DNA from: Marinobacterium rhizophilum DSM 18822
GTDB taxonomy: Bacteria; Pseudomonadota; Gammaproteobacteria; Pseudomonadales; Balneatricaceae
DNA: 64,000 nt
Reading direction: 5' to 3'
NCBI RefSeq assembly: GCF_000378045.1
Contig: NZ_KB899092.1
Span: 62,001-126,000 of the forward strand
Shown here: piece after piece, positions 8,101 through 48,848 of the stretch
Numbering within the stretch: the first letter of the stretch is position 1
How the letters are laid out: every line of letters starts with the position of its first letter
Position numbers and translations under genes: made by a program
The notes under the pieces: generated by a model
Databases searched by the model: none
What the model was told of the DNA's origin: nothing
Seen by the model: the letters and a program-made list of their open reading frames with translations, nothing else

Positions 8101-9955
8101 TATGCTGATGTCACGCCATATTCGCCTGGTCGCGGCATTTAACCATCAGCATATCTTTATCGACCCGCAGCCTGACCCTGCCAGCAGCTATGCCGAGCGC
8201 GAGCGTCTCTTCGCGATGCCCCGCTCGAGCTGGGATGACTATGATCGCAGCCTGATTTCCGCCGGTGGCGGCATCTTCCTGCGCAGTGCCAAGTGGATCG
8301 ACATCAGCCCTGAAATGAAGCAGCGCTTTGGCATCACGGCGGATCGCCTGGCGCCTAACGACCTGCTGTCGACATTGCTGCGCGCCCAGGTAGATCTGAT
8401 CTGGAACGGGGGGATCGGTACTTACGTCAAGGCGAGCCACGAGAGTCATGCCGATGTGGGCGACAAGGCCAACGATGCATTGCGTATCGATGGCAAGCAA
8501 TTGCGCTGCCGGGTGCTGGGGGAAGGCGGCAACCTCGGCTTCACGCAGCAGGGGCGTATCGAATACTGCCTGCATGGTGGCGCGTCCAACACCGACTTTA
8601 TTGACAACGCCGGCGGCGTCGACTGCTCCGACCATGAAGTCAACATCAAGATCCTGCTGAACGAAGTGGTGGCCAACGGCGATATGACCGTCAAGCAGCG
8701 CAATGCCATGCTGCGCGAGATGACCGACGAGATAGCTCGCCTGGTACTGAAAAACAACTACAGTCAGGCGCTGGCCATCAGTATGGCCAAAGCGCATTCG
8801 TGCCATTCGATGGACGACTATATCCGCCTCATCCACCGGCTTGAATCGTCGGGCCGGCTGGTGCGGTCGCTGGAATTCATTCCATCCGACGAGGTGCTGC
8901 AGGAGCGCAAGGCGCAGAAGCTGGGCCTCACCCGGCCGGAGCTGTCGGTACTTATTTCCTACACCAAGGCTGAGCTGAAAGAGAAGCTGACCGGTTCATG
9001 GATTACCGAGGATGCGTTTTTGTCCAAGGCCATAGTCACAGCGTTCCCGCAACAGCTGGTCGAACGTTTCCCCGAACAGGTGCAAAACCATCGCCTGCGC
9101 TCGGAGATCATAGCGACCCAGATTGCCAATTCGCTGGTGAACCACATGGGCATCACCTTCATGCAGCACCTGCAGCAGGCCAGTGGTCGCGACCAGGCGG
9201 CCATTGCGGCTGCGTATGTGATAGCGCGCGAGCTGTACGACATCGAACCGCTGTGGCACGAAATCGAAGCCCTGGACAACCAGGTGCCGGCGCAGTTGCA
9301 GCAGGAAATGATGCTGGATCTTATGCGCCTGGTGCGCCGGGCCAGTTACTGGTTCCTGCTCAAGCAGCGCGGCAGCCTGGAAGTGGCGGCCACGGTTGAG
9401 CGATACCAGCCGGGTATTCGCGAGCTTAGCCCGACGATTGCGCAGCGCCTGCAGGGCGAACCCTTGCAGCACTGGCAGCAGCGCAGCAGCAGTCTGGTGG
9501 ATGCCGGTGTACCTGACAGCCTGGCAGCGATGGTGGCCTCGGCTGACAGCCTCTATGCACTGCTTGGCGTGATAGAGGCGGCGATGCAGACCGGCCAGTC
9601 GCTGGAGCGTGTTGCGGCGGTTTACTTCGATCTGGCGCAGCGGCTTGAGCTGCACTGGTTCGACCAGCAGGTACGCGCCATCGAGGTTGGCAATCATTGG
9701 CAGTCCATGGCCCGTGACGGCTTGCGCGAGGATCTCAACATCCAGATGCGGCTACTGACGATCAACGTGCTGGAAGAGGGCGCTGATAACGCCGATACCA
9801 CGGCGTTGGTAGACAGCTGGCTGGAGCGCCAGGCGCCGTTGCTGGGCCGTTGGCAGCAGATGCTCACTGAGCTGCGCGCCAGCAGTGGTCACGACAGCGC
9901 CATCTTTACGGTGGCCATGCGCGAACTGTTCGACCTGGCCCAGGCCGGCGGCTGA
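5117..9955 (+). CDS. gdhB: NAD-specific glutamate dehydrogenase, large (180-kDa) type
   Basis: 1612 residues, matching the large NAD-GDH class (about 1600 aa) known from Pseudomonas and Streptomyces. It oxidatively deaminates glutamate to 2-oxoglutarate and ammonia with NAD, feeding amino-acid carbon into the TCA cycle. The N-terminal half is the long regulatory region. The catalytic core begins near residue 800, with GGLRWSDRREDYRTE and the lysine-bearing VPVGAKGGFVPK near residue 848, followed by the dinucleotide-binding part (VVAIGDMAGDVFGNGM). A purine-rich ribosome binding site precedes the ATG. The gene stands alone, with a strong hairpin terminator after it. Its minus strand holds a 923-codon open frame that is only a shadow. 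Confidence 0.97.
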   Translation: MSEQRSDNKTRLLTQLGELFESRLASDAAAQVGAFTAAYYRVSPYDELAERRLENLYGATLSCFQFLQESEAHEPRLRVFNPDLEQHGWHCNHTVIQILHPNMPFLVDSLRMELNRREMAIHVVHSAVLNLSRDAEGHVTGLVDAGADGALREALIYLEVDRHSAADELKTLRAQLSEVLGEVRASVGDFPAMRARLENLRDELNTRETGASRESLSEAAAFCDWMLSDRFTFLGYDELAFSGEGDNFSVTRVAGSELGTLKLHVQNGRRRTGDDLRAEERDFMLCADPLMFAKDAVRARVHRPAHQDMVVIKRYDAKGKVCGEHRFYGLWTSPVYVEPPLRVPVLRRRTEKTLARAGFDPQGHSGKSLVQIIAELPRDELFLANDEELFDMAMGIFTLQERRKVKLLIRRDSCSKFVSCLYFVPRDLYTTALRQQVQQHLSEHFNATDCEFTTRFSESLLARVYLVLKVNPAVPLEFNAQAIEAEVIEISKAWSEDLHAALVESAGEERGNHLANHYRHAFPSAYREDFSPSSAVYDIQRIEQLGENLTINLSFYRVLEQSREVLRFKLFHPQQPLILSDVIPVLEKLGMRVVGEHPYKVKRRDGARFWIHDFTLRYDSSEPVELEDVKQNFQDAFSTVWAGRAENDEFNRLVIGANLSWRDVAMLRAYARYNQQIRFGFSQPYIAEALGRHLYLTRLLVALFKARFEPGRQSSSKVQALTERIAASIIEGLDKVDNLNDDKILRRFLELIQATLRTNYYQPDEQGELKDYFAFKLNPHGIADIPLPRPMFEVFVYSARVEGVHLRGGKVARGGLRWSDRREDYRTEVLGLVKAQQVKNAVIVPVGAKGGFVPKMLPVNGSRDEIHAEGIACYQIFIRALLDITDNLVGADLVPPKGLVRHDEDDPYLVVAADKGTATFSDIANEIAEEYGFWLGDAFASGGSQGYDHKKMGITARGAWESVKLHFRELGLDTQTQEFTVVAIGDMAGDVFGNGMLMSRHIRLVAAFNHQHIFIDPQPDPASSYAERERLFAMPRSSWDDYDRSLISAGGGIFLRSAKWIDISPEMKQRFGITADRLAPNDLLSTLLRAQVDLIWNGGIGTYVKASHESHADVGDKANDALRIDGKQLRCRVLGEGGNLGFTQQGRIEYCLHGGASNTDFIDNAGGVDCSDHEVNIKILLNEVVANGDMTVKQRNAMLREMTDEIARLVLKNNYSQALAISMAKAHSCHSMDDYIRLIHRLESSGRLVRSLEFIPSDEVLQERKAQKLGLTRPELSVLISYTKAELKEKLTGSWITEDAFLSKAIVTAFPQQLVERFPEQVQNHRLRSEIIATQIANSLVNHMGITFMQHLQQASGRDQAAIAAAYVIARELYDIEPLWHEIEALDNQVPAQLQQEMMLDLMRLVRRASYWFLLKQRGSLEVAATVERYQPGIRELSPTIAQRLQGEPLQHWQQRSSSLVDAGVPDSLAAMVASADSLYALLGVIEAAMQTGQSLERVAAVYFDLAQRLELHWFDQQVRAIEVGNHWQSMARDGLREDLNIQMRLLTINVLEEGADNADTTALVDSWLERQAPLLGRWQQMLTELRASSGHDSAIFTVAMRELFDLAQAGG

Positions 9956-9964
9956 TAGAGCGTC

Positions 9965-9993
9965 AAACCGGCAGGTATTCTGCCTGCCGGTTT
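9965..9993 (+). terminator. Rho-independent terminator after glutamate dehydrogenase gene
   Basis: A perfect 11-bp stem, AAACCGGCAGG (9965-9975) pairing with CCTGCCGGTTT (9983-9993), has a 7-base loop and ends in a T-rich stretch. It lies 10 bases past the stop codon. Confidence 0.85.
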
Positions 9994-10116
9994 CCTTCCC
10001 CGTTTCCTGTCATTTCCCTGTAGCCGTCTTGCTGCCATTTAATATGCCTCCATGCATCGACCTCGGCCTGGACCCTGTGCACAATAGAGCCCTTTAAAGA
10101 CTGCTCCGGATTTGCT

Positions 10117-10830
10117 GTGCCCCTGATCAAATCTTACCTGCTGCGCCCCCTGCTCAAGGCGATACTCTGGCTTGTCGCCGGCTGGATTGGCTTTAGTGTC
10201 TTGCTTGTGTTGCTGCTCAAAGTGGTGAACCCCCCGGTATGGTCATGGCTGATCCAGCGCGAGATCTTTCCGCCGGCGGGTTATCCGGATGAGTATGCGC
10301 ATCAGTGGGTGGCGACGGATCGAATTGCGCCAGCCATGCGGCTGTCGGTGATTGCCGCGGAAGACCAGCGTTTTGCCGAGCACAGTGGCTTTGATTTCAA
10401 AGCCATCAAGCGGGCACTGGATCACAACCTGGATGGCGGTAATGTGCGCGGTGCAAGTACCCTGACCCAGCAGACCGCGAAGAATCTGTTTCTGTGGTCG
10501 GGGCGCAGCTGGGTACGCAAGGGTCTGGAGGCCTGGTTTGCACTGCTGCTCGAACTACTCTGGGACAAGAGTCGCATTCTTGAAGTGTATCTGAATATCG
10601 TCGAGTTTGGCCCCGGCATCTATGGTGTCGAGGCGGCCGGGCGCTACTATTTCGGTACACCGGCGAAATCCTTGTCGAACCTGCAGGCCGCGCGCCTGGC
10701 GGCGGTTCTGCCCAACCCGTACCGCTACCGTGCGCAGCCGCCGAGTCCTTACGTACAGCGTCGCAGTCAGTGGATTTTGCGACAAATGCGCCAGCTCGGC
10801 ACAGTCACGCTTCAGGCGGTCGATGGCTAA
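10117..10830 (+). CDS. mtgA: Monofunctional peptidoglycan glycosyltransferase MtgA
   Basis: 237 residues, the usual length. There is one N-terminal membrane segment (residues about 15-38) and then a family-51 glycosyltransferase domain. It shows the catalytic glutamate in [14 protein letters not shown], then [16 protein letters not shown] and [19 protein letters not shown]. The protein polymerises lipid II into glycan strands at the outer face of the inner membrane and has no transpeptidase domain. The start is a GTG (MPLIKSYL); no ATG fits. It is a single gene between two hairpins. Confidence 0.95.
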
Positions 10831-10917
10831 ACCGGTGCCCGGCTTTGGCAATACGGATTCCCTTTGCGGGTAGCATAGGCGGCCGGCCGTAGCAGGCGCA
10901 TTACCCCTCAGAGGAGG

Positions 10918-10942
10918 CCGGCACCTGTTGGCAGGTGACCGG
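10918..10942. repeat. Hairpin in the mtgA-sbcD gap
   Basis: CCGG-CACCTG (10918-10927) pairs with CAGGTG-A-CCGG (10932-10942) around a TTGG loop: 10 bp with one bulged A. No T tract follows on either strand, so it is not a standard terminator. It sits about 60 bases ahead of the sbcD start and could be part of its leader. Confidence 0.5.
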
Positions 10943-11000
10943 GTGTGTGGTTGTCTGTTTGACCGCAAGGTTAATAAAAACGCCCTGATCAGGACTATCA

Positions 11001-12302
11001 ATGCGAATACTTCACAGCTCGGACTGGCATCTTGGGCAGCATTTCATGGGTAAAAGCCGCGAGACCGAGCACCGTGCCTTTCTGGCCTGGCTCATCGAGC
11101 AGGTACAGGCGCATCAGGTGGATGCGCTGATTGTCGCTGGCGATCTTTTTGATACCGGTACTCCACCGAGCTATGCCCGCAGGCTCTACAACCAGTTCAT
11201 TGCAGACTTGCGCCTTACCGGGTGTCAGCTGGTGATACTGGGTGGCAACCATGATTCGGTATCGACCCTGCACGAGTCCCGCGAACTGCTTGCCTGCCTG
11301 GGCACACGGGTGATTGGGGGCGTCACGACCGACCCCAGAGACCAGGTTATCGTGCTGCAGCAGCGCGACGGTACGCCCGGTGCGGTGCTCTGTGCCATTC
11401 CCTACCTGCGCCCACGTGACCTGATCGAGAGTCATGCCGGCGAAAGTACGCTGCAAAAGCGCCAGGCGCTGAGCGAGGCCATTGGTCATCATTATACCGT
11501 TATCTATGATATGGCCCGCCAGGTCCGGGATGATCTGCAAAGCGCTCAGCAGGCAAGCGGCGCGGTACTCGGGGCGGATTCTGCGGCCTCTGTCCCGTTG
11601 CCAATTATCGCCACGGGGCATTTGACCTGTGTCGGTGGTCAATTGTCCGAGTCTGTGCGCGAACTTTATATCGGTACCCTGGAAGCCTATCCGGCGGGTG
11701 CCTTTCCACCGGCGGACTATATCGCACTGGGGCACTTGCATCGCGCCCAGGCCGTGGGCGGAGAGTCCCATATCCGTTACAGCGGCTCACCCATCGCACT
11801 GAGTTTTGACGAGAGCAGGGGTAGCAAGCAGGTACTGCTGGTGGATTTCGCTGCCGGCAAGCTTGACGAAATCACGCCGCTGGCGGTGCCGGTGTGGCAG
11901 CCCATGCACAGTCTGAGTGGCAACCTGACAGAGCTGGAAGCCCAGCTGCAGGCCCATTTCGGTGATGGTGGCGATGAGGCTGCGGCCGGACCGCTCACCT
12001 GGCTCGAAATTGAAGTGCGTGGGGATGATTACCTCAGTGACCTGCAGCCACGGGTACAGCAGCTGGTGGAGGGGATGCCTGTCGAGGTGCTGCGTATTCG
12101 GCGTCAGCGCAGTGCCAGCAATATCGCGCTTGAGCGCGATAGCCGTGAAACCCTGCAGGAGTTATCCGTGCACGACGTATTTGAACGTCGCCTGGCGCTG
12201 GAAGAAAACATGGATGAGATCACACGGGAGCGCCTCGTCGGCGCCTTTGATTCACTGCTGCAACAGATACAGGACGGGGATCAGAACACATGCGAATCCT
12301 GA
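11001..12302 (+). CDS. sbcD: Exonuclease SbcCD subunit D
   Basis: 433 residues. It is a Mre11-type metallophosphoesterase with the manganese-binding motifs in order: SDWHLGQ (residues 7-13), [17 protein letters not shown], and ALGHLHRAQ. With SbcC it cleaves hairpins and processes double-strand ends at the nucleoid. The C-terminal region is the capping/SbcC-binding part. It overlaps sbcC by 13 bases, the usual coupled arrangement. Confidence 0.96.
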
Positions 12303-38513: not shown

Positions 38514-39461
38514 CTAGGCCGCCTGCTGGACGCTGTCAAAGGCGGCCAGAATGGGTTTCAGGGCCTGTTGGATTCTGTTCAGCTGGCTGTCGCAGGTTAG
38601 CTCTGCAAGTACCCTGGAAAAGCGGGGATGCTGCACACCCGAAACGATAAATTGCCACCGGTAGGCTTTTTGCAGGGTTGCCCGAATGCACGCCTGTTCG
38701 GTGGCGCTGCAGGTTTGAGCGGTATTGCGGCAGAAATAGTCGGCATCGCTGTCGGCCTGGGCACAGACAATATTGTCGACAGCGGCCACCAGGTCGATCA
38801 GGTCATCGACGGCCTGGTCCCGCTCTGCTTCACAAAGCCGTGCGTCTTCGCGTCGCCATTCGATCTCATCCATGATCGCGTGCTGTGATTCCTCTCGCCA
38901 GTGGTATAGGAATACGTCCTTGAAAAGTGGCGACATCTGCATGTCCGGTGCGATGCTTTGTTTGTAATGCAGCTGGGTGAACAACTCGATATGGCAGGTC
39001 AATGCCAGTACAGCCCAGGTTGATTTGCTGAGTACCGCCTCTGCAACCGCGTTGGGTTCGGGTGCGAAGCAGTAGCCCGCAGGCAGTGCAGCGGCGGCCA
39101 TCTGCTCAATGCGGCGGAAGAGTTCCTGGTGCTTGAGTTCTTCGTCGCTAAAGCGAACCAGGCCTTCGAGGGCAACCTGGTCATTCAGCAGGTAGTCGTG
39201 GCTCAGTTCGATGACCTTGGCGCAGATGAAGCGCTCGACCAGACCGAACACGTTGGCGTAGGTGCGTCCCTGGATCTGACTTAACAGCCGTTTATCGTCA
39301 TCAGTCAGAAAGTCCAGATCCTGTATGCAGGAGAGGCCATCAGGCAGAAATTTGCGGTCGGCATCGAGCACGCGGCCCCGGATCAGATCCTGCTCGATCT
39401 CCCAGCGCATGCGTTTCGAAGCATCAATGCAGCGGGCATACTGTTCGGTACGGGTGTTCAT
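38514..39461 (-). CDS. Ferritin-like diiron protein, oxygenase-like
   Basis: 315 residues, mainly helical. Likely diiron ligands are spread over four helices: E76 in VERFICAKVIE, E108 and H111 in EELKH, E159 in HIELFTQLHY, and E191 with H194 in EESQH. This two-fold E...ExxH pattern matches ferritin-like oxygenases such as the AurF-like or fatty-acid desaturase-like groups. No reductase or substrate gene is adjacent. There is a good GAGGACC ribosome binding site. It stands alone between DUF1127 and the histidine kinase gene. Confidence 0.75.
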   Translation of the reverse strand: MNTRTEQYARCIDASKRMRWEIEQDLIRGRVLDADRKFLPDGLSCIQDLDFLTDDDKRLLSQIQGRTYANVFGLVERFICAKVIELSHDYLLNDQVALEGLVRFSDEELKHQELFRRIEQMAAAALPAGYCFAPEPNAVAEAVLSKSTWAVLALTCHIELFTQLHYKQSIAPDMQMSPLFKDVFLYHWREESQHAIMDEIEWRREDARLCEAERDQAVDDLIDLVAAVDNIVCAQADSDADYFCRNTAQTCSATEQACIRATLQKAYRWQFIVSGVQHPRFSRVLAELTCDSQLNRIQQALKPILAAFDSVQQAA

Positions 39462-39591: not shown

Positions 39592-41679
39592 TCAGGGCGC
39601 TAAAAGCTCGCTCAGGGTCTGGCGCAGGCGGTCTGTGTCGACCGGCTTGCGAAAGAACGCGTGTATGCCGGCCTGGCGCAGGGCTGCATCATCGGTATCT
39701 TTGGCGAATCCACTATAGAGAATCATTGGCAGATCGGGCCGCAGGGCCCGTATTTCACGGGCCAGGTCGATACCCGTCATGTCCGGCATGGTCTGGTCTG
39801 TAATGACTATATCGAACTCTTCGGCACGGCTGTTCATCAGCGTCAGCGCGTCCGGACCGCTATAGCAGATACTGACCTGCAGACCCCAGGTGCTGAGCAG
39901 GTCTGCCATGAATTCGGCCACCGTGGCTTCGTCATCCACCAGCAGCACATGCCCGCGCATTTTGGTTTTCTGTTGCGCTTTTTCGACATTGGCAGTGTCA
40001 TCCGGCAGGCGGTACTGGCAGGGCGGCAGCAGAATATGGAAATTTGCGCCTGCCTGGGGGGCTGTATTGACCAGTATGTGGCCGTGATGCTCGTGCACAA
40101 TGCCATGTATCATGGCCAATCCCATGCCACTTCCCTGGCCTGCAGTCTTGGTTGAATAAAAGGGCTCAAAAATGCGCTCCAGGGTTTGGGCATCCATTCC
40201 GGAGCCCGTATCGGCGACCTGCAGCTCAATATAGTCACCCGCCAGCGTGGCATGGCAGGAAGCGCAGATCTGATCCTGAACCTGCAGGCTGCCCAGTGAT
40301 ACATGGATTTCGCCGCAGCCGTTAAGGGCATCACGGGCGTTGATACACAGGTTCATCAGGATTTGTTCGATCTGCATCGGGTCCGCGAGTACGGCAGGCA
40401 GGCGCGCGCCCAGCTGTTCGGTGAGCTGAATGCCTGGCGGCAGAATGGCGTCCATCATGCGCAGGCCGTCATAAACCGGGTCGGACAGCTGGATTGGGCG
40501 TCGTTGTCCCTGCTGTCCTCGGCTGAAGGTGAGCAATTGCTGAATCTGGTGACTTGCCCGCTGATTGGCCGCATGGATTCGATCCAGGTAGCGGAGCATG
40601 ACGGGATCCTTGTAACCCGCGGCCTGTTCCTGGGCGAGTACGATATAGCCCATCACGGTGGTGAGAATGTTATTGAAATCATGGGCGATTCCGCCGGTGA
40701 GTTGGCCGATGGCCTGCATCTTTTGCGCCTGGCGTAACTGCGACTGCAGTCGTTTTTCCGTTGCAACGGCCTGTACGCGGTCCCGAATATCACGCAGGTA
40801 ACCGATAAAAATCGTTTCGTCGCCTTCGTCACGGGCGACCTCTATGGTGAGTTCGACAGGGATTTCCTCGCCGTTGGCGGCAAGTGCGGGTACCTCCACC
40901 CGGCGTCCGAGATAGTCGCCTTTCCCGCAGGAAAGAAAGCGGGCCAAACCGGCTTTGTGTCCGTCCCGAAAGCGTGCTGGGATCAGCATATCAGCCAGGG
41001 GCTTGCCAATCACCGCGCTCTTCCTATAGCCAAAACAGGCCTCTGCGGAAGGGTTTAGATCGATAATGTTACCGTTGCTGTCCATGCTGATGATCGAGTC
41101 GAGCGCGGCTTCGAATATGGTTCGATAACGAATTTCAGACCGCTTGTGCGCGCTGGTGTACTGCTGGCGTTCCAGTTCCAGTGCCGCGCGAGTGGAGAAA
41201 ATACGCAACACCGGCTGAATCATATCCTCGTCCTGCAGTGGCCTGTCATTCATGACGGCCATTAGCCCGAGGGTGTTGCCCTGTGAATCGAACAGGGGAA
41301 TGGCGGCATAGCTTTCGATGCCAAGTTCGACCAGGTGGGGGTCGGGAAAAAGTTGGCGCATGTTGCGGGGGAAGTAGCGATATTGCAGGCCGATGACTTG
41401 TTCGCAGGGGGTACCGACCAGGTCATACTCATAGCTGTCGACGAACCGGCCAAGGCTGTATGCAGCGATGACCTGGACACGACGGGTATCGCCAGGCAGC
41501 AAGGTGCCGATGAGGGCATGCTGCACACCGAGTGCGAGCGTCATGCGTCGCACCAGTTGCTTGAAGATATCGCCGCCTGCCTGGCAGGTGACGGCTTCGG
41601 CCGCCTGAAACAAAGCCTCGCGCAGGCGCTGTTCTTCAATGGAGTGTTTCATGACGGCATCCGCATTCGGCGTTTCCAT
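39592..41679 (-). CDS. Hybrid sensor histidine kinase (GAF-PAS-HisKA-HATPase-REC)
   Basis: 695 residues, soluble (no membrane segment). A GAF domain spans residues about 25-170, PAS about 185-305 ([15 protein letters not shown]), then HisKA with the phospho-acceptor H333 in GGIAHDFNN. The HATPase follows with [10 protein letters not shown] and DTGSGMD. A C-terminal receiver has VLLVDDE and ITDQTMPD with the phospho-aspartate near residue 625. The ATG at 41652 is an alternative start. It lies 84 bases behind the OmpR-type regulator on the same strand, so the pair probably works as one system. The signal is cytoplasmic and unknown. Confidence 0.9.
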
Positions 41680-41763: not shown

Positions 41764-42492
41764 TTATTCAGTGGTGGGTATGAACATGTAGCCGCTGCCG
41801 CGCACGGTACGAATGCAGCGGGGGCGTTCCGGGTCGGATTCTATCTTGCGCCGTAACCGGGCTATGCGAATGTCGATGCTGCGATCGTTCGGATCCCAGT
41901 CGCGATTCTGGGTGAGATTGAGAATCTGGTCTCGGCTCAGAACGCGATTGGGCCGGTCGATCAGAATCTGGAGCAGTTCGAACTCCATCTGTGTCAGTGC
42001 CAGTTCCTCATCACCCGGCCCGAACAACTGCTGTGACAACAGGTCCAGCGTACAGCGGCCCACCCGGACCCTCTGTGACGGCTCGGCGCCGGTATTCGGG
42101 GTCGTGACTGGAAGTTTCTCATAGCGGCGCGCCACGCTTCGAACCCGGGCCAGTAATTCGCGCGGATCAAAAGGTTTGGCTAGGTAGTCGTCGGCACCGA
42201 TTTCAAGGCCGACGATACGGTCCACGGCTTCGCCGGCGGCTGAAATGATGATGATGCCGATATCCAGGTGTTCGCGAATGTAACGGGCCAGCGAAAGCCC
42301 GTCTTCTCCCGGCATGCTGATATCGAGCAGGACTACCGAGGGCTTCTGTTGCGCCAGCAATGTGCGAGCAGCGGCCGCATTCTCGGCCTCAAGTATTCCG
42401 TACCCCTGCAGCTTGAGGTAATCGCTGATCATTTCGCGAATCGCGGCATCATCGTCGATCACTAGTACCGAGTGTTCGCTCTCTGTGATCAT
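41764..42492 (-). CDS. OmpR-family response regulator
   Basis: 242 residues from the ATG at 42492 (GGGGAG upstream); the frame open to 42660 is not coding. The receiver has the acidic triad D13-D15, the phosphorylation site D57 in VVLLDISMPGEDG, and a Lys in AKPFDPREL. The C-terminal winged helix shows RDWDPNDRSIDIRIARLRRK and VRGSGYMF. It follows the small secreted-protein gene by only 31 bases and precedes the hybrid kinase. It is likely phosphorylated by that kinase or by its receiver relay. Confidence 0.92.
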   Translation of the reverse strand: MITESEHSVLVIDDDAAIREMISDYLKLQGYGILEAENAAAARTLLAQQKPSVVLLDISMPGEDGLSLARYIREHLDIGIIIISAAGEAVDRIVGLEIGADDYLAKPFDPRELLARVRSVARRYEKLPVTTPNTGAEPSQRVRVGRCTLDLLSQQLFGPGDEELALTQMEFELLQILIDRPNRVLSRDQILNLTQNRDWDPNDRSIDIRIARLRRKIESDPERPRCIRTVRGSGYMFIPTTE

Positions 42493-42523: not shown

Positions 42524-43066
42524 TTACTCGGGTAGGCGATGTAACCGGGCGGTGACTTCCTTGCTGATCTTTCCATCCAGTATTCGTGTGTAGGCCAGAT
42601 CCATATCGCCATCGTCGCGCAGTGTGCGGTCGTAGGTTTGCATGTCGTAAGAGCCCTCATTGGTAATCATCAAGGCATATACAGTGAGTGTCTTGTTGTG
42701 AATGCGGGCCCAGACGAAGGGATCCCCGGCCAGTGGATCCAGGGGAATATGCTTGCCAAAAACATTCATGCGCATGGCCGAGGCGTAGACGGCGCCACGG
42801 CGCGTCTTTCGAAACAGGATGCGGTAGGTGTGTTCCTTGAGCGTCAGGTCGTCCCGTTTTACCCGCGTGCCCCAAGACACTTCGAAGTTATCGTCTTTGG
42901 GTTCTATCCCGACCGTCAGCTGTCTGAGGTCGGCTTCGCCACTGACCTGAGCATCCGCAGTACCGGCGTAATGACCGTAAAATGCCTCTATTTCCAGATC
43001 CTCGGCATACAGCGGGCCTGCCAGGAACAACAGTGACAAGGTCAGCAGAGAAATTAGTTGGCGCAT
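42524..43066 (-). CDS. Secreted protein of unknown function
   Basis: 180 residues from the ATG at 43066; an ATG four codons upstream (43078) is also possible. A signal peptide is clear (MRQLISLLTLSLLFLAGPLYAED). The mature part is beta-rich, with repeated short hydrophobic strands, RILFRKTRRGAVYA and WARIHNKTLTVYAL. No known family comes to mind; a lipocalin- or beta-barrel-like periplasmic fold is possible. It is 31 bases upstream of the response regulator, so it may be sensed by, or a target of, that system. Confidence 0.75.
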   Translation of the reverse strand: MRQLISLLTLSLLFLAGPLYAEDLEIEAFYGHYAGTADAQVSGEADLRQLTVGIEPKDDNFEVSWGTRVKRDDLTLKEHTYRILFRKTRRGAVYASAMRMNVFGKHIPLDPLAGDPFVWARIHNKTLTVYALMITNEGSYDMQTYDRTLRDDGDMDLAYTRILDGKISKEVTARLHRLPE

Positions 43067-43192
43067 ACGGTGTTCCATTCAGTGTAGTGTTCTTTTATGC
43101 AGGGTAGCAGACGGTGTTTGTCTATGAGCGCTGCCCCCATGAATCCTGTTGCAGTGTCTTTAATTTGGCAAGTATAGCGTTCTGTAGAAAAA

Positions 43193-45796
43193 TTACAGAT
43201 TACTGCTGGTCAGGCTAGGCACGGTATCGTTTTCGATATTGCGTAACTCGTCCAGGACAATTTCGTACTCGGCATCGAAAAGCCCGCCCGGCGGAATTTC
43301 CTGATCGAGGTAGATAAGGGTCAGTTCCGGCAGGCGTGCCTGAATGCGACCGAGTACAGTTGATCGTTCTTCAAGGCTCATGGCGGTGAGGGCTTCGTGC
43401 ATGACCAGTACCCTTGGGTGTTTGACGATAGCGCGCAGCAACTGGATGCGCTGGCGTGCGATCAGGGGCAAGCTGCCACCTCGGATGCCGACCTGGGTGA
43501 AACCTGCCAGTACCATAACCATGGACTCGGCGTCTTGATCCTGCATGGCGGTATCAATAAGCTGCTGCAGCTGGTGCAGCTCAGCAGGATCAGTGCCGAC
43601 CACCTTGCCGAACAGGACATTTTCTCGCACGGTCAGGCCCGCACTGATGCGATCCTCGCTAAAGTGATCAAAACTGCTGCACAACGGACAGTCGGTCCGC
43701 GCCATGACGACCTGTCGTGCGGCGAGCAGCTTTTCGGTCAGCGCCTCGTCCAGCAAGTCGGCGCCGTGCTGAAGCGGCACGATGCGCAGAAACAGCTCCA
43801 GTAGCAAGACACGGTCCTCGGCACTGCGCGCGGGATCCCCACGCTCCAGTTCACTGATCCGGCGGCGAAAGTCCGCTGTGTCGAACTCGCTGAAGGTGTC
43901 CGGCAGTGGATCAAGCGGGCCGGCCTCCACCATCACTTCACCCAGTCGGTTGGCCATGCGACGGCCGCACTCCAGCGCCTGGCTGGTCAGTTCGAACTGT
44001 TCGAGCAGGGGTTCCATCAGGGGGTGTGCAGCCATTGATGCCGGATCGCTGATGGGCGGGCGGGGGATGCCGAAGCCCAGGTTCTGCGCGACTGACAGGC
44101 CGCAGTTGTAATGCTGTGGATCAAATCGCTCGATAAGGTGCTCGAGGCCGGATTCGGGTACCTGTTGCAGTAACTGTTGGCGAACCCGGAGCAGTCCGTC
44201 CGACAGTTCCTTGGGGCGTTCCGCGGGGTTGTATTTCTGGTTCATGCCGACGTCGTAGATGAGTTCGTCCGCTCCCACGACTTTCAGGCCTTCATAAAGC
44301 CAGTGCCGCATGTCTTCCCAGTTTTCCGCGTGGGCCAGGGCAAAGTCGGTCCAGATGCCGTCGAAGCGGTCGGTACTGTTGCCTGAGGCCTTAGCTTCGT
44401 AGATTTCCCAGCGCCGCTGGCTGTCGATCTGCTCGGGTGACTCTATCGGTGGCTTGAGCCGCATGCTGTAGTTGATGTTCTGCAGCATGTTGCCCGAAAA
44501 CAGGAAGGCGTCGGGGCCGACATAGGTCAGCTCACGTGCCAGCAGATCGGAGGGCAGGTCCTGCAAGTCGACTTTGCCAAACATCAGATGGCCGGTGAGT
44601 GGTGGATTGATCCGGATCAGGGTCCGCGCCAGTGCGCGCAGGCGGGAAGGGTCCTGGCAGCGTATGGCCACGCTGCTGCCGGCAGGCAGCTGAAGGTTGA
44701 TGTTGCGTACCAGGCGATTGCCAATATCGCTGCCCACCGACACTTTTTCCAGGCGGATGTTGTTATCCAGATGGGTCGGGCTGTTGTCACTGGTGGGCAC
44801 AATGGGCATGAGATCCTGGGACTGGAACTGCTCCAGAATCTGCTCGTATTTGATCAGGGAATCCTGGTACTGCTGGTAGTAATCCAGCAGTTCCTTCCAG
44901 GGAGCGGCAAGGTCCTTGTGAGCCGCAACTGCGGCGACCAGCGCCCCTATAGTCAGGTCGCCGCGAATGGCCAATACACCGCCGATGGAATAGAACATCA
45001 ACGGGGTCAGTTGGTTAATGAGGTTATTGATGAACTTCATGAAAAACTTTTTCTTGTAGATGTCGAGCCGTATGCGAAACAGTTCGCCCAGAATCTTGGA
45101 AAATTCGGCCAGATGATAGGGGCGGGTGCCATGAAGGCGTATCTCCATCATGCCGTCGACACTTTCGCCAATGCGCTGGGAAAAATGACGCACCGTCCTT
45201 ACCCGTTCCTTTTTAAGCAGATTAATTTTGCGCTGTAGTCTCGGGATGATGACGATCTGCAATGGAATCAGAAGGATGGAGGCGAAGCCCAGGATCGGGT
45301 CCTGCATGAACATGAACAGCAGGATGGTCAGCATGGTGCCACCCTGAAAGGCCGGCAGTGCAATGCTGTCGCCGATGAAACCCGCCAGCGGTTCGGTTTC
45401 GGCTGTTACGGTCGAGATCAGTTCGCCCTGGCTGACCATCTGGAAGCGCCGTGGCTGAAAGCGCAGAATGCGCTCTACCAGCTGGTAGCGCAGGCGCCGC
45501 ACCAGGCGCTCACCCACAATGCCCTTGTAGGTGTTGATATACATTTTCACCAGACCGTTGATCAGGATCAATGTCAGCAGCAATGCGCACAGGCCCAGCA
45601 GGTAGTACATCGGTTCAAGGGTGATATCGAAGAACTGCTTCAGGTTGGCAGCATCACCGATCGCATCGTTGATGATGATTTTGGGCAGTTCCAGCGAGAC
45701 GTAAAGCAATGGAAAGGAACAAAAAGTCATCAAGAGCAGACGGATCTGCTGTGGCAGGCTGTAGCGCAGAATAAATCGGACAATGGACTTGTCCAT
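43193..45796 (-). CDS. ABC exporter-like protein with degenerate, split nucleotide-binding domain
   Basis: 867 residues from the ATG at 45796, after GGAGATC. The first 330 residues form a six-helix ABC exporter membrane domain. The nucleotide-binding domain then begins, but every catalytic motif is lost. Walker A is GSSVAIRCQDPSRL (373-386), with no GxGKS. The Q-loop is VGPD (426-429). The signature LSGGQ is LPLIA (near 776). Walker B is LVMHE with His for Asp (797-801). The switch His is absent near 832. Residues 447-717 form an inserted domain containing CPLC at 703-706. It is one half-transporter without an obvious partner. It may be a non-hydrolysing scaffold or regulator. Confidence 0.85.
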   Translation of the reverse strand: MDKSIVRFILRYSLPQQIRLLLMTFCSFPLLYVSLELPKIIINDAIGDAANLKQFFDITLEPMYYLLGLCALLLTLILINGLVKMYINTYKGIVGERLVRRLRYQLVERILRFQPRRFQMVSQGELISTVTAETEPLAGFIGDSIALPAFQGGTMLTILLFMFMQDPILGFASILLIPLQIVIIPRLQRKINLLKKERVRTVRHFSQRIGESVDGMMEIRLHGTRPYHLAEFSKILGELFRIRLDIYKKKFFMKFINNLINQLTPLMFYSIGGVLAIRGDLTIGALVAAVAAHKDLAAPWKELLDYYQQYQDSLIKYEQILEQFQSQDLMPIVPTSDNSPTHLDNNIRLEKVSVGSDIGNRLVRNINLQLPAGSSVAIRCQDPSRLRALARTLIRINPPLTGHLMFGKVDLQDLPSDLLARELTYVGPDAFLFSGNMLQNINYSMRLKPPIESPEQIDSQRRWEIYEAKASGNSTDRFDGIWTDFALAHAENWEDMRHWLYEGLKVVGADELIYDVGMNQKYNPAERPKELSDGLLRVRQQLLQQVPESGLEHLIERFDPQHYNCGLSVAQNLGFGIPRPPISDPASMAAHPLMEPLLEQFELTSQALECGRRMANRLGEVMVEAGPLDPLPDTFSEFDTADFRRRISELERGDPARSAEDRVLLLELFLRIVPLQHGADLLDEALTEKLLAARQVVMARTDCPLCSSFDHFSEDRISAGLTVRENVLFGKVVGTDPAELHQLQQLIDTAMQDQDAESMVMVLAGFTQVGIRGGSLPLIARQRIQLLRAIVKHPRVLVMHEALTAMSLEERSTVLGRIQARLPELTLIYLDQEIPPGGLFDAEYEIVLDELRNIENDTVPSLTSSNL

Positions 45797-47153: not shown

Positions 47154-48848
47154 TCACCAGGCCTGATCGTTGTCCTGCTGTTGCCTGGCGTGTTGATAGA
47201 TTGCATCCACGATGGCTTTCAGGCCATTGCCCCTGGACGGGCTCAGGTGCTGAATGAGCTTGAGGCGTTCAAACTGTCCCTGCAGGTCAAAGCTGAGGAT
47301 ATCGTTGGCCGTTTTGCCATTGAATGCCGCCAGCAGCAGGGCGATGAGGCCGCGAATAACGCGGGCATCCGAGTCCATCTGCAGCCAGAGTTTGCCATCG
47401 CGGCGTTCGACACACAGCCAAACATGGCTTTCGCAGCCATGCAGGCGGTTGCTGTCGGTGCGCAGTGCCGCGCTCATGGCTGGCAGGTTCTTGCCCAGCA
47501 GCATGATTTCCCGATAGCGGGCCTGCCAGCCGCGGCAGTTCTCGAGTCGTTGCAGGAGCGTATCTGCAGCCACAGGTGGCGTGCTCTGGGTCTCACTCTG
47601 TAGGGGTGTGCTGTTGTCCTGTGGAGGCTGCCGGTTGTGCTCCTGCACGATCTCTCTGAGCACGCAGGCAAAGCGCTCGACTTCCGCCTGGCTGTTGTAA
47701 AACGCAAAGGAGGCGCGCAGGGTGCCAGGCAGGCCCAGGCGCTGCATCAGGGGCATGGCGCAGTGGTGGCCGGCACGTACCGCGATGCCGTACTGGTCCA
47801 GCATCAGGCCAAGATCCTGCTGGTGCAGGCCATCGACGCAGAAGGACATGACACTGACCCGCTGGGCGGCCTGACCGACGGGGCGAAAACCCGGAATGTC
47901 GCTACAGAGTTCAAGTGCCCGGTGGAGAAGCTGCATCTCGTGGGCTTCCAGTGCCTCGCGGTCAAACTGCTGCAGGTAGCCGATGGCGGCGTCCAGCCCG
48001 ATAACACCGGCAATATTGGGCGTACCGGCTTCAAACTTGAAAGGCAGTCCGGCAAAGCGAGTGGCCTCAAAACTGACATGCTCAATCATTTCTCCGCCGG
48101 CCTGCCAGGGCGGCATGGCCTCCAGCAGCGACTCGCGCGCCCAAAGGGCGCCGATACCGGTGGGTCCGAACAGCTTGTGGCCGGAAAAGACAAAGAAGTC
48201 GCAGCCTATTGCCTGTACATCAATGGGCAGGTGCGGGGTGGACTGGGCGCCATCAATCAGCACCCGTGCCCCGGCGGCCTGGGCGGCCCGGGTCATTTCA
48301 GCCACCGGGTTCAGTGTGCCCAGGGCATTGGAGGCATGGGTGAGCGCCACCAGGCGCGGTCGTTCTTCTAACAGGCGCAGATAGGCGGCCTGATCCAGGC
48401 TGCCATCGTCCAGCAATGGTATGGCCTTGAGGCGTGCGCCCAGCTGCTGGGCCAGCAGCTGCCAGGGGACGATATTGGCATGGTGCTCCAGCGCAGAGAC
48501 CAGAATCAGGTCGCCGGCGCTCAGCTGTGAGCGTCCATAGCTGTGTGCCACCAGGTTGATGGCCTCGGTCGCACCGCGGGTCCAGATGATTTCGCGCGGG
48601 CTGGCAGCACCGATAAAGCGTGCCACGTTCTCCCGGGCCCGTTCAAAGGCCCGGGTGGCCCGGCTGCTCAGACTGTGGGAGGCGCGATGCACATTGGCAT
48701 TGCTGTGGCAGTAGTACTGCGACTGCGCGTCGATCACCACCTGGGGCTTCTGGGTGGTGGCGGCGTTATCGAAGTAGATCAGCGGCTGGTTATGCACCTG
48801 CTCCCCCAGAATGGGGAAGTCGGCGCGCAGGTGTGCTATATCGAGCAT
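47154..48848 (-). CDS. SufS-SufE fusion (cysteine desulfurase with sulfur acceptor)
   Basis: 564 residues. Residues 1-405 are a SufS/CsdA-type group II desulfurase: IYFDNAATT, SALEHHANIVPW, the PLP lysine K225 in SGHKLFGP, and the active-site C363 in RAGHHCAM. A Pro/Thr/Gln-rich linker (about 420-440) joins a SufE/CsdE domain, with its sulfur-accepting C472 in LHGCESHVW. The fusion would pass persulfide directly for Fe-S assembly or other thiolation. It is the last gene of the arsC/wrbA/DUF2069 unit; its ATG shares one base with the upstream stop (TGATG). Confidence 0.9.
   Translation of the reverse strand: MLDIAHLRADFPILGEQVHNQPLIYFDNAATTQKPQVVIDAQSQYYCHSNANVHRASHSLSSRATRAFERARENVARFIGAASPREIIWTRGATEAINLVAHSYGRSQLSAGDLILVSALEHHANIVPWQLLAQQLGARLKAIPLLDDGSLDQAAYLRLLEERPRLVALTHASNALGTLNPVAEMTRAAQAAGARVLIDGAQSTPHLPIDVQAIGCDFFVFSGHKLFGPTGIGALWARESLLEAMPPWQAGGEMIEHVSFEATRFAGLPFKFEAGTPNIAGVIGLDAAIGYLQQFDREALEAHEMQLLHRALELCSDIPGFRPVGQAAQRVSVMSFCVDGLHQQDLGLMLDQYGIAVRAGHHCAMPLMQRLGLPGTLRASFAFYNSQAEVERFACVLREIVQEHNRQPPQDNSTPLQSETQSTPPVAADTLLQRLENCRGWQARYREIMLLGKNLPAMSAALRTDSNRLHGCESHVWLCVERRDGKLWLQMDSDARVIRGLIALLLAAFNGKTANDILSFDLQGQFERLKLIQHLSPSRGNGLKAIVDAIYQHARQQQDNDQAW

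Follow-up and report, generated by a model that had tools for sequence, protein, structure and literature searches.

The window analysed here, a 64,000-nucleotide stretch of the Marinobacterium rhizophilum DSM 18822 genome (contig NZ_KB899092.1, positions 62,001 to 126,000), encodes at 43193..45796 on the minus strand an 867-residue protein that is by fold an ATP-binding cassette (ABC) exporter but, judged by its ATPase features, not a recognisable ABC ATPase. Sequence comparison indicates that ABC exporters whose ATPase has degenerated form a widespread family of which it is one member, making the observation wider than first noted, and the family-wide loss of the motor suggests exporters rebuilt to work or signal without their ATPase. 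Constraint in this family is inverted relative to MsbA, with the membrane domain the most conserved part.

An exporter membrane domain joined to a degenerate nucleotide-binding domain

The longest open frame of the gene runs from 45841 to 43193 (882 aa), but since homologues begin aligning at MDKSIV/MERSI, 45796 (867 aa) is the better start. The protein and its parts, including the nucleotide-binding domain (NBD), are laid out as follows.

43193..45796 (-): ABC exporter half-transporter with degenerate NBD, 867 aa (open reading frame, Pfam, homologue alignment)
44807..45796 (-): membrane domain, residues 1–330 (Pfam ABC_membrane, E = 9.5e-22; dN/dS 0.048)
44459..44761 (-): first NBD part, residues 346–446, Walker A and Q-loop Gln lost (alignment, motif census, AlphaFold2 model)
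43646..44458 (-): insert, residues 447–717, common to the full-length family
43922..44254 (-): repeat unit 1, residues 515–625 (hhalign against unit 2)
43451..43783 (-): repeat unit 2, residues 672–782, extending into the second NBD part (hhalign against unit 1)
43247..43645 (-): second NBD part, residues 718–850, lacking the signature, the Walker B Asp and the switch His (phmmer, alignment, census)

The original prediction described a normal exporter membrane domain, and residues 69–289 indeed match the six-helix Pfam domain ABC_membrane. A phmmer search of the PDB matched exporters such as YheI over two stretches, 45–443 and 715–822, and Foldseek with the AlphaFold2 model returned an exporter as best match (E = 7.7e-14), the top two being TmrAB and TM287/288; pLDDT of this full-length model, taken in blocks of ten, was ~71–93 in the NBD and insert and ~41–88 in the membrane domain, parts of which are low-confidence. 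The best NCBIfam score was to MsbA_lipidA (TIGR02203), with 140.1 bits against a 602-bit cut-off, so the protein does not qualify as MsbA, and a separate protein above that cut-off is encoded elsewhere in the genome. No cyclic nucleotide (cNMP)-type domain was found in the window protein by Pfam.

The ATPase, by comparison, scored only 16.4 bits against Pfam ABC_tran, under the cut-off of 25. The Walker A position reads VAIRCQDPSRLRAL, with RCQDPSRL where [AG]x4GK[ST] was sought; the Q-loop reads VGPD, without its Gln; LPLIA replaces LSGGQ at the signature; Walker B is LVMHE, in which His replaces Asp; and the switch His is missing (LIYLDQE). The five losses first reported are thus all seen, and only the broader wording, that every NBD motif is gone, goes too far, because Walker B still has its Glu (HE). 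A CPLC motif noted at 703–706 does begin at residue 703 but, in an alignment of 30 rows, occurs in the five from the same genus and nowhere in the remaining 25; it is a genus-level rather than a family feature.

The insert is an internal duplication

The insert at about 447–717 is real, and full-length relatives carry it too, down to 28% overall identity. That these 270 residues are a foreign domain is a view that we reject because the insert has no credible relative in Pfam, the PDB or by fold and matches itself strongly. When the insert alone was scanned against Pfam in 30 members, seven single-member matches (E = 0.048–0.094) were all that was returned, none of them credible; searched against the PDB by sequence, it gave at best E = 0.64 as a single sequence and 0.044 as a profile (a designed helical barrel); and none of the 43 Foldseek matches to its predicted model (pLDDT 88.6) reached E = 0.001. 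Repeat units 1 and 2, on the other hand, aligned to each other in hhalign with probability 99.1, E = 9.1e-19 and a score of 98.8 over 86 columns, from which we conclude that the insert is a tandem duplication of the post-Q-loop segment within the NBD. A third, shorter copy of the motif, the post-Q-loop stretch itself, lies at ~430–445 and matches the two units with E = 1.5e-4 and 4.2e-5. Of the control pairs, 14 in all, 12 scored no higher than 17.8; the other two (25.7 and 29.3) both include segment 350–460, which contains this third copy.

Motif loss extends across the family

A census of 115 family members, dropping four fragment or membrane-only rows (L027, L028, L029 and L073), found no member with a complete motif set. 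Four members have a consensus Walker A and ten the Q-loop Gln; at Walker B, 31 retain the Asp and 36 the Glu; none has the exact LSGGQ signature. Looser patterns matched a Walker A-like Gly-Lys in 31 members (at least two falsely, the match in L024 and L095 being upstream of the real one), a signature resembling LS-x-x-Q in 20 and, around the switch, a His in 25. These rows are not independent, 96 being left at below 93% membrane-domain identity. The most complete member, L164, has Walker A (GDGNSGKT), LVLDE, the switch His and LSGAQ but lacks the Q-loop Gln, and L110–L112 retain Walker A and Walker B. Because each motif except the exact signature survives somewhere, the family ancestor probably had a near-complete ATPase with the insert, its motifs then being lost piecemeal. 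Alignment showed the same losses across genera. The scenario under which the window gene would be the sole divergent copy among intact homologues does not fit the sampled set, with 0/115 complete.

In a membrane-domain tree of 93 rows, built by a quick method with SH-aLRT support, the Marinobacterium clade (100) joins a clade containing Amphritea (96) and Azospirillum (98), next to a clade of Rhodobacteraceae and the second Marinobacterium family member described below (97). L118, L122 and L123, omitted from this tree and from a 112-row membrane-domain census, carry the family NBD and insert with a very divergent membrane domain (Pfam for L118 only).

The surviving residues bear on whether the NBD might bind ATP or another nucleotide non-canonically and gate the membrane domain without hydrolysis. 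The Gly-Lys and switch-region His counts above, for all their looseness and false positives, would fit such cryptic binding, as would an NBD fold predicted with fair to good confidence; but in the window clade the Gly-rich loop, the Lys and the Asp are all missing, and conservation of the membrane domain far exceeds that of the NBD core and the insert. We regard cryptic nucleotide binding as very unlikely.

Purifying selection and inverted constraint

The gene is present with an unbroken frame, and with its losses kept, in all seven same-genus genomes searched (own included), the other six copies being 71–88% identical to the window protein over full length; its closest named relatives are in M. 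profundum (86%), M. sedimentorum (84%) and M. nitratireducens (72%). For ten pairs of five Marinobacterium genomes, dN/dS, calculated by the Nei–Gojobori method with a script of our own, was 0.048 for the membrane domain, 0.110 for the NBD core and 0.088 for the insert, compared with 0.086 and 0.097 for the membrane domain and NBD of MsbA in the same genomes. All three domains are under purifying selection, which indicates that the NBD still does something. The many motifs missing at once could also be read as a decaying pseudogene or an assembly error, but seven open frames in seven genomes, dN/dS of 0.05–0.11 and the same losses across genera leave that explanation next to no probability, and we reject it. 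The original prediction, that motif loss in an intact frame points to selection for something other than ATP hydrolysis rather than to decay, is supported by the family-wide losses, the purifying selection and the seven unbroken copies.

The distribution of constraint was compared with that of MsbA in the same 19 genomes for both proteins. MsbA open frames, found in 19/19 genomes, were picked by requiring Walker A and LSGGQ, and the independent part of this control is Walker B (19/19) and the His-Arg pattern (19/19, loose). Between the genus and other genomes (84 pairs), conservation in the family was 0.526 for the membrane domain, 0.257 for the NBD core and 0.244 for the insert, versus 0.420 for the membrane domain and 0.617 for the NBD of MsbA; within the genus (21 pairs) the values were 0.889, 0.778 and 0.737 for the family, and 0.832 and 0.843 for MsbA. 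The NBD was better conserved than the membrane domain in none of 171 genome pairs for the family and in 164 of 171 for MsbA.

A second family member, 34–38% identical to the window protein, occurs in all seven same-genus genomes. The one in the window genome (C1:183863–186385, 35% identical) is also degenerate and carries a C-terminal cNMP_binding domain; the next match in that genome is MsbA, at 21%.

Relatives reduced to the membrane domain

Among 116 genomes of the host's family, seven stand-alone proteins of 385–404 aa match the membrane domain only (L092, L093:7729–8943 and L215–L219), two aligned ones carrying an extra N-terminal stretch of ~80 residues. All seven genes lie within a few genes of multicopper oxidase (CopA) and CopB genes, and six of the seven loci also have genes for a regulator and a kinase close by (neighbours by Pfam for L093, L215, L217 and L219, and by BLAST for the remainder). 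Charged positions kept in 90% or more of 112 full-length members number 21, and all seven proteins share 16 of them unchanged (K39, K84, E96, R101, R103, E133, E135, R198, R203, R243, K250, K254, K294, D295, E302 and D312). The two stretches that by our assignment would couple to the NBD are shortened, one of them to 42 residues from 46 and the other to 41–42 from 50. Such proteins are the strongest sign in the sequences, and suggest, that the family membrane domain can be useful without any NBD. The original prediction had proposed a sensor, a scaffold or a transporter powered by a partner subunit. The membrane-only relatives and the inverted conservation favour a membrane domain that works without an ATPase of its own.

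Gene neighbourhoods in Marinobacterium and the sensor alternative

Downstream of the window gene, on the same strand, lie the following genes.

42524..43078 (-): 184-aa protein with an apparent signal peptide (by eye), the next gene downstream and a possible partner (homologue co-occurrence)
41764..42492 (-): OmpR-type response regulator (Pfam, scanned from one codon upstream of the Met), a neighbour
39592..41679 (-): hybrid sensor kinase, GAF-PAS-HisKA-HATPase-receiver (Pfam), a neighbour

The 184-aa protein has no Pfam match. Its homologues stand beside the family gene in four other Marinobacterium loci (68–85% identity) and also near it in two glycosyltransferase-linked loci, L074 (49%) and L075 (40%), and this latter co-occurrence makes it a candidate partner. 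The pairing is thus seen in several genera.

An arrangement in which a secreted-type protein, a regulator and a kinase adjoin an exporter-like protein would suit a transceptor, in which the fold, rather than transporting, detects a ligand and passes a signal on to the two-component system next to it. Sensors that resemble transporters, BceAB among them, are known, and the presence of a regulator and a kinase at six of the seven membrane-only loci points the same way. However, the full-length link to two-component genes was seen only in Marinobacterium and not at all of its loci (L084 and L085 lack such genes), the commonest companions in the wider set are cNMP domains and glycosyltransferases, and the kinase by the window gene brings its own input domains, GAF and PAS. 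On these grounds a sensor seems to us rather unlikely.

Two further genes around the window copy were noted. At 38514–39461 (-) a 315-aa protein has weak matches only (Metal_hydrol and AurF, E ~0.03), and its cluster also occurs downstream of the kinase in some relatives. At 47154–48848 (-) there is an apparent natural fusion of a SufS/CsdA-type cysteine desulfurase (residues ~6–400) with a SufE/CsdE-type sulfur acceptor (~426–556). An anti-phage defence role was considered and rejected, PADLOC giving no families at E = 0.001.

Relatives lie with cyclic-nucleotide-binding and glycosyltransferase genes

Neighbourhoods were compared in 47 loci, left from 56 after removing two without an anchor (L140 and L149), two membrane-only (L092 and L093) and five Marinobacterium window-type loci; the 47 were of our own choosing and are not independent, and their proportions lack a background rate. 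A cNMP-binding domain was fused to the family protein in 14/47, encoded by an adjacent co-directional gene in 16/47, and fused or near in 32/47, counts that are lower bounds because the simple open-reading-frame picker used for neighbours missed an annotated Crp/Fnr-type gene beside the S. meliloti copy. Group 1 glycosyltransferases occurred in 24/47 loci and GT28-type ones in 23/47 (either in 26, both in 21), a class III cyclase in 8/47 and importer genes in 12/47. By annotation, Shinella and Mesorhizobium have three glycosyltransferase genes, then the family gene, then a gene for a cNMP-binding protein, with a polysaccharide deacetylase and more glycosyltransferase genes farther out; the Mesorhizobium stretch also holds two adenylate/guanylate cyclase genes. 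Two scanned Azospirillum members have a fused cNMP domain with importer and glycosyltransferase genes near, the importer genes including an annotated ATP-binding protein. Two neighbours, at L075:13675–14472 and L082:17469–18179, had no Pfam match in one scanned member each; their clusters (6 and 23) are present in 12 and 4 loci, respectively, of another neighbourhood comparison.

The window-type copies have neither a cNMP domain or gene nor a glycosyltransferase among the neighbours examined. The window genome does have a glycosyltransferase cluster, on another contig (L214:8661–14865; two GT28, an unknown, two GT1 and a His phosphatase, by BLAST), and no family gene was found within the 19.5 kb examined around it.

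The possibility of a powered partner

Powering by a partner would take the form either of a heterodimer with an active ABC half-transporter or of an ATPase borrowed from elsewhere. Heterodimeric exporters, for example TM287/288 and TmrAB, often have a degenerate site, as reviewed in PMC7756269. These two are also the top Foldseek matches of the window protein, and importer genes lie near 12 of the 47 relatives' loci. In heterodimeric exporters with a degenerate site, one site is active and the degenerate-site subunit retains Walker A, which the window protein lacks. There is no exporter half adjoining the gene or elsewhere among the neighbours examined, the closest paralogue in the genome is degenerate too and the next match is MsbA, at the 21% given above. 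Two near-tandem members in one genome (G016; L089:5817–8411 and 9424–12006) are likewise both degenerate, and forms consisting of the membrane domain alone exist. We judge a partner-powered subunit unlikely.

Distribution

With the full-length query at E = 1e-60 or better, the family was found in 14/57 genomes and in 6/369 genomes of a class sample (own genome counted in both). A profile of the insert found it in 31/398 genomes of a phylum sample and in 108/289 genomes of the class of G650, taken to be Alphaproteobacteria from members clustering with Shimia and Salaquimonas proteins. At E = 1e-40, 262 of 72,556 plasmid records carry a member, mainly from Rhizobium (142) and Sinorhizobium (80). 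Family genes are annotated as 'ABC transporter transmembrane domain-containing protein' or as 'ABC transporter ATP-binding protein', the latter probably misleading. No paper describing the family was found in the open-licence PMC literature; the S. meliloti pSymB member may be SMb20813, an msbA homologue mentioned in PMC10945364.

Discussion

The reading we favour, with the chances for and against it about level, is that the window protein is an ATP-independent permease or flippase with an exporter fold, in which the NBD serves as scaffold or gate; transport, substrate and gating are all inferred. The family would have retired its ATPase, leaving the membrane domain as the working part, and a substrate would most likely either run down its own gradient, be driven by that of an ion, or be flipped as a lipid-linked species, without ATP hydrolysis by the protein's own NBD. 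The NBD, enlarged by the post-Q-loop tandem duplication, may hold a dimer together as a scaffold or act as a gate; many relatives would probably have this gate set by a cyclic-nucleotide-type domain, C-terminally fused or encoded next door; and the ancestral role was probably tied to a surface glycan or glycolipid made by the neighbouring glycosyltransferases. That the family as a whole turned from ATP-driven pumps into permeases or flippases that need no ATP, are gated by cyclic nucleotides and serve surface-glycan synthesis, and that some descendants then lost the NBD entirely and were taken into copper-resistance loci, is a more tentative proposal, plausible but on balance doubtful.

A precedent is MsbA stripped of its NBD (MsbA-MD), which according to PMC4979069 exports ethidium on a pH gradient, so that secondary transport is within the reach of an exporter membrane domain. 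By analogy we infer that the window family might transport in the same way. MsbA-MD is a laboratory truncation, whereas the seven membrane-only proteins, which we propose as its natural counterparts, are found in genomes.

Several observations weigh against this permease or flippase reading. The window copy itself lacks a cNMP domain and stands outside any glycosyltransferase cluster, so that gating and the glycan link rest on relatives, and 15/47 of the relatives' loci have no cNMP gene and 21/47 no glycosyltransferase. Coupling loops are retained in full-length members, whose NBD and insert are under purifying selection, and R97, R100, R112, E125 and E211 are not kept in all membrane-only forms. 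L110–L112 and L164, with Walker A and Walker B kept, may still use ATP; importers encoded in 12/47 loci could supply an ATPase in trans; and there is the heterodimer with a half-transporter encoded elsewhere, improbable as we think it.

Comparison with known systems sets the family apart in different ways. Type IV (MsbA-like) half-exporters likewise have a six-helix ABC_membrane domain followed by an NBD, and MsbA_lipidA gave the best NCBIfam score; yet the window protein reaches only 140 of the 602 bits, has lost its motifs, carries the duplicated 270-residue insert and shows inverted constraint. TM287/288, TmrAB and BmrCD, among the top structural matches, have also lost catalytic residues, but one of their sites stays active and Walker A is kept; in the window family 0/115 sampled members are complete and no exporter partner is linked. 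HetC also combines an ABC exporter with a cNMP-type domain; according to PMC10986499, that domain is N-terminal and a ppGpp binder, and HetC further contains a C39 peptidase and depends on its catalytic Glu. In the window family, by contrast, the ATPase is degenerate and the cNMP domain is C-terminal or separate, and missing from the window copy. CFTR (ABCC7) is an ABC-exporter fold acting as a gated channel whose gating needs ATP, whereas the window protein has no recognisable ATP site. A mechanism categorically different from that of known ABC exporters is a possibility.

ABC transporters are defined by their ATPase, and this family would offer a natural test of whether an ABC membrane domain can act as a secondary transporter or channel. 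Its members form a graded series, from L164 with most motifs, through the window protein with only the Walker B Glu, to the copper-linked forms with no NBD at all, and this makes the question testable.

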